64,000 nt of DNA from Gaiellales bacterium. Lineage in GTDB: Bacteria; Actinomycetota; Thermoleophilia; Gaiellales; JAICJC01. Where the stretch lies: positions 62,001 through 126,000 of the forward strand of contig DASWRM010000034.1 of assembly GCA_036403155.1 (NCBI GenBank). Direction: 5' to 3'. The position numbers and the translations under genes were made by a program. How positions within the stretch are numbered: position 1 is the first letter of the stretch; every line of letters starts with the position of its first letter. The notes under the pieces are model-generated. The model was not told where the DNA came from. It was given only the letters and a program-made list of their open reading frames with translations, and did not search any database. Shown in pieces: positions 61,516 through 63,204 of the stretch.

Positions 61516-62559
61516 TCAGACGTTGAAGCGGATGTTCAGCACGTCGCCGTCCTTGACGACGTAGTCGCGCCCCTCCACGCGCACCCAGCCGCGCCGCTTC
61601 GCCTCGGTCTCGCCGCCCGCCTCCACCAGCCGGTCCCACTCGATCACCTCCGCCCGGATGAACCCGCGAGCGAGGTCGGTGTGGATCTTTCCCGCCGCCT
61701 CCTGCGCGTTCTGGCCCCGGCGAATCGTCCACGCCCGCGTCTCCTTCTCGCCCGATGTGAAGAACGGGATCAGGTCGAGCGCGTGGTATGCGGCCAGGCT
61801 GACCTGATCGAGCGCCGGCGACGCGATGCCGAGATCGTCCAGGAAGGCCTGGCGATCGGCCTCGTCCAGCTCGGCGATCTCGGCCTCGAGCTTCGCGTCC
61901 AGCGCGATCGTCTCGATGCCGCGGTCGTGGCCGAAGGCTCGCAGCGCCGCGACCGACTCGTCATTCCCCGACTCGTCGACGTTCGCGATGTAGAGCGCGG
62001 GCTTGGCGGTCAGCAGGTCGAGGCCCTCCGGCATGTCGATGCCGAACGACCGCGCCGGCCGTCCCTGCTCCAGCCCCGCCTCCAGCTCGCGCAGCAGGTC
62101 GTGCTCGGCGACGGCCGCGGCCTCCCCCGACTTCGCCGTCTTGGCCACCCGCTCGATCCGGCGCTGCACGGCCGCCTGGTCGGCGAACACGAGCTCCAGC
62201 TCCACGGTCTCGGCGTCGTCGAGCGGATCGACCCGCCCCGACGGGTGCGCCACCTGCTCGTCGGAGAAGCAGCGGACGACGAGGACGACGGCATCCGTCG
62301 TGCGGATGTGCGCGAGCAGCTCGCCGCCCAGCCCCTCCCCGCGCTTGGCGCCGCGCACCAGACGTGTCAAATCCACGACCTCGAGCGTCGCGGGCACCAC
62401 GCGCCGGGATTCGGACACGCGCGCAAGCGCCGCGAGCCGCGGGTCGCGCACGTCGGCGATGCCCTGGCCCCCGTCAGCAGAGACCGAGGCGCCGCACAGG
62501 CAGCGCAGCGTGGTCGTGACGCCGGACCACGGCAGGCCGAGCAGTCCGAGGCCGGCCAT
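61516..62559 (-). CDS. YchF/Obg-like protein with degenerate P-loop
   Basis: 347 residues, full YchF length. The C-terminal TGS part is intact (IPFFTSGEKETRAWTIRRGQNAQEAAGKIHTDLARGFIRAEVI ... DYVVKDGDVLNIRFNV region, about 255-347). The G1 loop, normally GLPNVGKST, reads GLPWSGVTTT (8-17), so the phosphate-binding Lys is Val14. G3, normally D-I-A-G-L, is D-L-T-R-L. The specificity segment ALYIANVDE remains. Nucleotide hydrolysis is therefore doubtful. YchF normally binds ribosomes and ATP. Third gene in the mce-DUF3107 unit. Confidence 0.85.
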   Translation of the reverse strand: MAGLGLLGLPWSGVTTTLRCLCGASVSADGGQGIADVRDPRLAALARVSESRRVVPATLEVVDLTRLVRGAKRGEGLGGELLAHIRTTDAVVLVVRCFSDEQVAHPSGRVDPLDDAETVELELVFADQAAVQRRIERVAKTAKSGEAAAVAEHDLLRELEAGLEQGRPARSFGIDMPEGLDLLTAKPALYIANVDESGNDESVAALRAFGHDRGIETIALDAKLEAEIAELDEADRQAFLDDLGIASPALDQVSLAAYHALDLIPFFTSGEKETRAWTIRRGQNAQEAAGKIHTDLARGFIRAEVIEWDRLVEAGGETEAKRRGWVRVEGRDYVVKDGDVLNIRFNV

Positions 62560-62576: not shown

Positions 62577-62786
62577 TCAGAACCCGACCCGCCCCACGTG
62601 CGTCTCGCGGCGCACGTAGCAGACCTTGGACACGTCCACGTGGTGGGCGACCCCGTCGCCGGTGAACGACGCGAGGCCCGATCCCTGCTGCAGCGTCTGC
62701 TCGAGCCGGGCCCACTCCTCCTCCGGGAGCTTCGCGCTGATGATCAGCCCGCCCTCGAATCCGATCTCGACACGCGAATCAGCCAT
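62577..62786 (-). CDS. DUF3107 family small protein
   Basis: 69 residues with beta-strand pattern: RVEIGFEGGLIISAKLPEEE at the start and KVCYVRRETHVGRVGF at the end, matching the actinobacterial DUF3107 family (about 70-75 residues). No known function. ATG 62786 lies within the end of the epimerase gene and has a GGAGAG ribosome site; 17 bases separate it from the YchF-like gene. Confidence 0.75.
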   Translation of the reverse strand: MADSRVEIGFEGGLIISAKLPEEEWARLEQTLQQGSGLASFTGDGVAHHVDVSKVCYVRRETHVGRVGF

Positions 62787-63204
62787 GCTCGCTCTCCTCG
62801 TTGGGGGGTTGCACAAGCTCGACGAGCACACCCTCGACGCTGTGCGGGTGGATGAACGCGACCCGGAGGCCGAACAGCCCGACCCGCGGCGTCTCGTCGA
62901 TCAGCTCGGCTCCCGCATCGGCCGCCTCGCCGAGGGCGGCTCCGATGTCGTCGACCCGCAGCGCGACGTGGTGCATGCCCGGCCCGCGGTTGGCGAGGAA
63001 CTTGCCCACCGGCGTCTCCGGCCCGAGCGGCCGCAGCAGCTCGATGCGGCCGACGCCGAGCAGCATCGTGGCCGCCTCGACGCCCTGCTCGGGCACCGTC
63101 TCGCGGTGTTCCAGGCGACCGCCGAGCACGCGCTCGTACGTTGCAATGGCCGAATCGAGATCCGCAACCGCGTGCCCGATATGATGGATCTCCTGCGTGC
63201 GCAC
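62779..63204 (-). CDS. mce: Methylmalonyl-CoA epimerase (VOC fold)
   Basis: 141 residues, two glyoxalase-type modules. Metal ligands lie in IHHIGHAV at the start, GMHHVALRV in the middle (about His78) and VLVELVQ near the end (Glu128). These and the length fit methylmalonyl-CoA epimerase, which links the S and R forms in propionate metabolism; a glyoxalase I relative is the alternative. GTG 63204 follows a leaderless promoter. First gene of the mce-DUF3107-ychF-like unit. Confidence 0.83.
   Translation of the reverse strand: MRTQEIHHIGHAVADLDSAIATYERVLGGRLEHRETVPEQGVEAATMLLGVGRIELLRPLGPETPVGKFLANRGPGMHHVALRVDDIGAALGEAADAGAELIDETPRVGLFGLRVAFIHPHSVEGVLVELVQPPNEESEHG

Follow-up and report, generated by a model that had tools for sequence, protein, structure and literature searches.

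A sole-copy YchF orthologue without the Walker A lysine in a Gaiellales bacterium

Locus and gene identity

The window, the whole 64,000-nucleotide stretch of Gaiellales DNA analysed here, carries towards its end a minus-strand open reading frame that encodes a YchF protein of 347 residues, preceded by a small open reading frame and a glyoxalase-fold gene (Table 1); the coordinates and strand of the reading frame were checked and are right. YchF/OLA1 belongs to the small number of P-loop proteins present in nearly all bacteria and eukaryotes. The assignment to this family, proposed in an earlier reading based on the sequence only (hereafter, the sequence-only reading), is borne out by profile comparison, with 313.3 bits against the NCBI equivalog model TIGR00092 (cut-off, 279.2 bits) and 120.7 bits against PF06071, the C-terminal YchF/TGS domain, which is covered in full (1−84). 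The TIGR00092 alignment begins only at residue 29 because the nucleotide-site start of the protein no longer fits the model. An alternative upstream start providing a canonical loop is ruled out, a single codon separating the preceding stop from the ATG.

Table 1. Features of the ychF locus in window coordinates
Feature	Position	Strand	Remarks
YchF orthologue, sole copy	61516..62559	-	347 aa
G1/Walker A remnant GLPWSGVTTT, residues 8-17	62509..62538	-	alignment with orthologues
Val14 at the Walker A Lys position	62518-62520	-	alignment with orthologues
G2/switch I (NYPFxT region) deletion point, residues 26/27	62481..62482	-	~8 residues missing compared with sister genus
G3 DLTR replacing DIAG, residues 63-66	62362..62373	-	alignment
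Switch II LVRGAKRGEGLGG, residues 67-79	62323..62361	-	kept in part, terminal Asn lost
Invariant His105, retained, within AHPSGRVDP	62245..62247	-	alignment
Helical (coiled-coil) domain, helices 112-164	62068..62226	-	predicted structure
G4 NVDE, retained (NVDQ in same-genus species)	61972..61983	-	alignment
TGS/YchF C-terminal domain (PF06071), residues 263-346, best-conserved part	61522..61773	-	
Small ORF directly upstream of ychF, same order in sister genus	62577..62786	-	no Pfam match
Glyoxalase-fold (methylmalonyl-CoA epimerase-like) gene, synteny neighbour	62779..63204	-	conserved

The nucleotide-binding site

The protein starts with MAGLGLLGLPWSGVTTTLRCLCG, in which the canonical GLPNxGKST loop is converted to GLPWSGVTT by three replacements, N11W, K14V, and S15T, and the GxxxxGK[ST] pattern is absent. 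G3 retains its Asp and carries Arg in place of Gly, and the DxxG pattern is likewise absent. Both alterations had been pointed out in the sequence-only reading, and alignment with orthologues places Val14 at the position of the Walker A Lys; two further features, missing from that reading, are (i) a deletion of about 8 residues in switch I, the NYPFxT region, when compared with the sister genus, and (ii) the survival of the NxxE pattern of G4, in which the same-genus species displays Gln for Glu. The half of the ATP site that binds phosphate and Mg, made up of the Walker A Lys, switch I, and the G3 Gly, is destroyed, whereas the TGS domain, which the same reading had described as well kept, is the best-preserved part of the protein, with 29 of its 34 conserved columns retained. 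Among the conserved columns that the sister genus keeps, 10 of 27−28 are lost from the nucleotide site, compared to 7−8 of 65−66 elsewhere (Fisher p 0.008−0.02, window protein); this contrast with the sister genus is the significant one, whereas for the window protein alone the comparison of nucleotide-site and other columns yields p 0.2, which is not significant.

These replacements suggest that binding and hydrolysis of ATP/GTP have probably been lost. Since the protein keeps NVDE and still has a hydroxyl residue next to Val14, at position 15, it may bind nucleotide weakly, and it could be envisaged as a sluggish but working NTPase that binds ATP or GTP through G4/G5 and the deviant loop. 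The preservation of NVDE, Thr15, and the G3 Asp speaks for such an enzyme; nevertheless, it appears improbable, as the Lys, switch I, and the G3 Gly are lost together and the G4 Glu is itself replaced in the same-genus species.

The genus is sampled by two species, both represented by draft genomes. The second species (G001) reads MAGLGLLGLQWSGVTTTLRCLCG, with the G1 loop GLQWSGVTTT, followed by DLTR and the same switch I deletion. The draft status of both assemblies would leave room for a sequencing or assembly artefact, but two independent species, separated in the altered region by a dS of about 0.5, display the same amino-acid loop; the chance of an artefact is thus negligible, and a sequencing error absent from relatives, which the sequence-only reading had considered, is rejected.

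Orthology and copy number

The window protein is the only YchF of its genus and the positional orthologue of canonical ychF. PF06071 finds one match in its own genome (98% complete) and one in G001, and the search for a second, canonical YchF with PF06071 and TIGR00092 returns none in either genome. The next-best TIGR00092 match in these genomes is Obg/CgtA, a related TRAFAC family with distant G-domain similarity to the window protein, from which it differs in being a separate gene with its motifs intact (GFPNAGKSS and DVPG). All three sister-genus genomes encode canonical GLPNSGKST and DIAG motifs. The gene order, comprising the glyoxalase-fold gene, the small open reading frame, ychF, an OB-HD protein, and a DUF1015 protein, is the same in the window as in the two of these genomes that were compared. 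In addition, a tree computed without the G1−G3 columns joins the two genera in one clade with support 99. Synteny and clade support therefore identify the window protein as a vertical orthologue of canonical ychF, and the alternative that it is a neofunctionalised paralogue retained for a new job, also put forward in the sequence-only reading, is rejected given the sole copy, the shared synteny, and the placement of the protein among the orthologues.

Distribution of altered sites in the family

The survey comprises 226 YchF proteins, drawn from the class and the phylum and, beyond these, from 80 named bacteria belonging to other phyla. The phylum-wide search covers the best matches, and weak YchF proteins were therefore picked by per-genome E-values; because families with weak matches were deliberately included, the following counts are not unbiased frequencies. 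The Walker A position is occupied by Lys in 211 proteins, Arg in 3, and other residues in 10, the remaining 2 being short proteins without the loop. The 10 proteins devoid of Lys or Arg (Val in 2, Ala in 3, Thr in 1, and His in 4) fall into three groups of one phylum, and the tree requires three separate losses of the Lys. These groups are (i) the window genus, to which the G-V-T-T loop is confined among the proteins read (2 of 2 species); (ii) family f22, with GLPGAGA or GLPGAGT for GxxxxGK and a changed G3 Asp (EVSG/ETSG) in four genomes of three genera (L224, L233, L250, and L251); and (iii) family f27, with GLADSGHDRLF and without NxxE, in four species (L225, L247, L248, and L249), one of them represented by a single-contig genome that is 99% complete. 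The genomes of f22 and f27 encode one YchF each, and the whole-protein dN/dS in both families lies between 0.05 and 0.27.

Other departures from the canonical site occur in the same collection. The Lys is replaced by Arg in L159 (G039), L229 (G324), and L241 (G552). Family f3, from the same order (L011, L020, L141, and others), keeps the Lys and loses the switch II segment and NxxE, while family f7 (L183−L196 and L204) keeps the Lys and loses DxxG; the erosion of the nucleotide site has thus taken more than one course within the class. Family f17 (L246 and L256) comprises YchF-like proteins of 229 residues in which the P-loop is absent and the TGS domain is kept; in G398 such a protein accompanies a canonical copy, and in G416 it is the sole PF06071 match. 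A PF06071 match is absent from eight genomes, each at least 90% complete (G313, G357, G388, G423, G441, G450, G460, and G474); since G423 and G441 are congeneric, the absence of YchF from these two may reflect a true loss.

Selection on the altered domain

The dN/dS values between the two altered species were calculated by the Nei-Gojobori method, the high GC content making dS approximate. The ratio amounts to 0.10 for residues 1−75, which contain the altered site, 0.16 for residues 76−135, 0.30 for residues 136−262, and 0.10 for the TGS domain, with 0.18 for the protein overall. Between genera, residues 1−75 are only 56% identical, compared to 87% for the TGS domain, and YchF as a whole reaches about 64−66%, within the range of roughly 57−76% of the neighbouring genes compared. 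The two YchF proteins of the genus share 85% identity, above the approximately 78−81% of the compared neighbours. On this pattern, the gene appears to have changed in a burst on the stem lineage of the genus and to have been constrained thereafter, rather than to be decaying.

A gene in decay, in which YchF has become dispensable and is degrading, could account for the rapid divergence on the stem branch of the genus, particularly in residues 1−75, and for the genomes of the phylum in which a YchF match is missing altogether. Nevertheless, the reading frame is intact in both species, the overall dN/dS is low, and the gene is more conserved within the genus than its compared neighbours, making decay very unlikely. 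The purifying selection acting on the altered region (dN/dS of about 0.10) therefore argues against a pseudogene, an explanation that is largely refuted.

The same constraint bears on a different alternative, according to which the G domain has exchanged its nucleotide for another ligand or partner, such as a metabolite, a protein, or an RNA accommodated in the old pocket, with the low dN/dS of the loop reflecting this new job and not just folding. The conservation of altered residues 1−75 between the two species and the unusual fixed residues Trp11 and Arg66 are in line with this possibility; however, fold maintenance alone can give a low dN/dS, and the parallel losses carry different loop residues, so that no shared new motif is seen. 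Such an exchange is thus rather unlikely, with perhaps some chance of being right.

Predicted structure and mode of action

The AlphaFold model of the window protein (pLDDT, 87.6; pTM, 0.82) has its lowest confidence in switch II (residues 69−76), where pLDDT values fall below 50 at residues 69−72 and 74−76. The top PDB matches of the model are YchF structures, with query TM-scores of 0.83−0.90 to bacterial YchF, and the fold, including that of the G domain, is therefore predicted to be intact. The highest TM-score, 0.90, corresponds to YchF with the 50S ribosomal subunit (PDB code, 8kie), and this similarity, together with the conservation of the TGS domain, suggests that the window protein may bind the ribosome.

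The only YchF of the genus is a true orthologue and has probably turned into a pseudo-NTPase, most likely one that binds the ribosome and acts constitutively instead of being switched by ATP. Half of its ATP site is lost, while the YchF fold, with its helical and TGS domains, is maintained; the protein would dock on the ribosome through the TGS and helical domains without ATP, and would function as a constitutive regulator of translation, with any control arising from its abundance or from other partners. The sole copy, the purifying selection on the altered domain, the conserved TGS domain, and the parallel losses make the nucleotide-independent ribosome-binding role suggested in the sequence-only reading the best-supported one, although both the ribosome binding and the constitutive action are properties that we infer. 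In E. coli, the cold-sensitive ychF knockout is not rescued by ATPase-deficient YchF (PMC8779481); one or more functions of the E. coli protein thus depend on ATP hydrolysis, which counts against an ATP-independent reading of the window protein. On the other hand, the title of a study on OsYchF1 from rice (PMC4791026, which PMC8779481 and PMC10144078 cite) states that ATP binding makes no contribution to abiotic stress responses.

Comparison with known systems and implications

The window protein resembles the ribosome-binding ATPases of the YchF/OLA1 family (TIGR00092; PDB codes, 1jal, 2dby, 8kie, and 2ohf) in the fold and the order of the G, helical, and TGS domains, the conserved TGS domain, the G4 NxxE motif, and the synteny with canonical orthologues, but differs in the absence of the G1 Lys, switch I, and the G3 Gly, and in a TIGR00092 match that excludes its N-terminus. 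OsYchF1 from rice, going by the title of the study, shares a YchF job performed without ATP binding, but its own site is intact and ATP is used for another role, whereas the site of the window protein was lost in evolution (PMC4791026). Degenerate G domains retained for the interactions they make have been described in eukaryotes, including septin pseudoGTPases (PMC10731463) and the pseudoGTPase domains of p190RhoGAP (PMC5593906); these are cytoskeletal and signalling proteins, whereas the window protein is its genome's single representative of a near-universal ribosome factor. No report of a YchF without the Lys was found in the open-access literature searched.

The loss of parts of the ATP pocket in this genus, with the same Lys independently lost at least twice more in relatives, suggests that YchF can work without ATP. 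A bolder generalization, which we hold somewhat less likely than its opposite, is that the core function of bacterial YchF needs no nucleotide, the ATP cycle being a dispensable level of control over a ribosome-binding TGS protein, dropped independently several times in the phylum and thereby giving rise to constitutive versions. Orthologues with a dead site, present as the sole copy and under selection, separate the job of YchF from the part that ATP plays in that job, and the natural variants without the Lys represent ready-made proteins for testing, in laboratory strains, which part of YchF function is fundamental.
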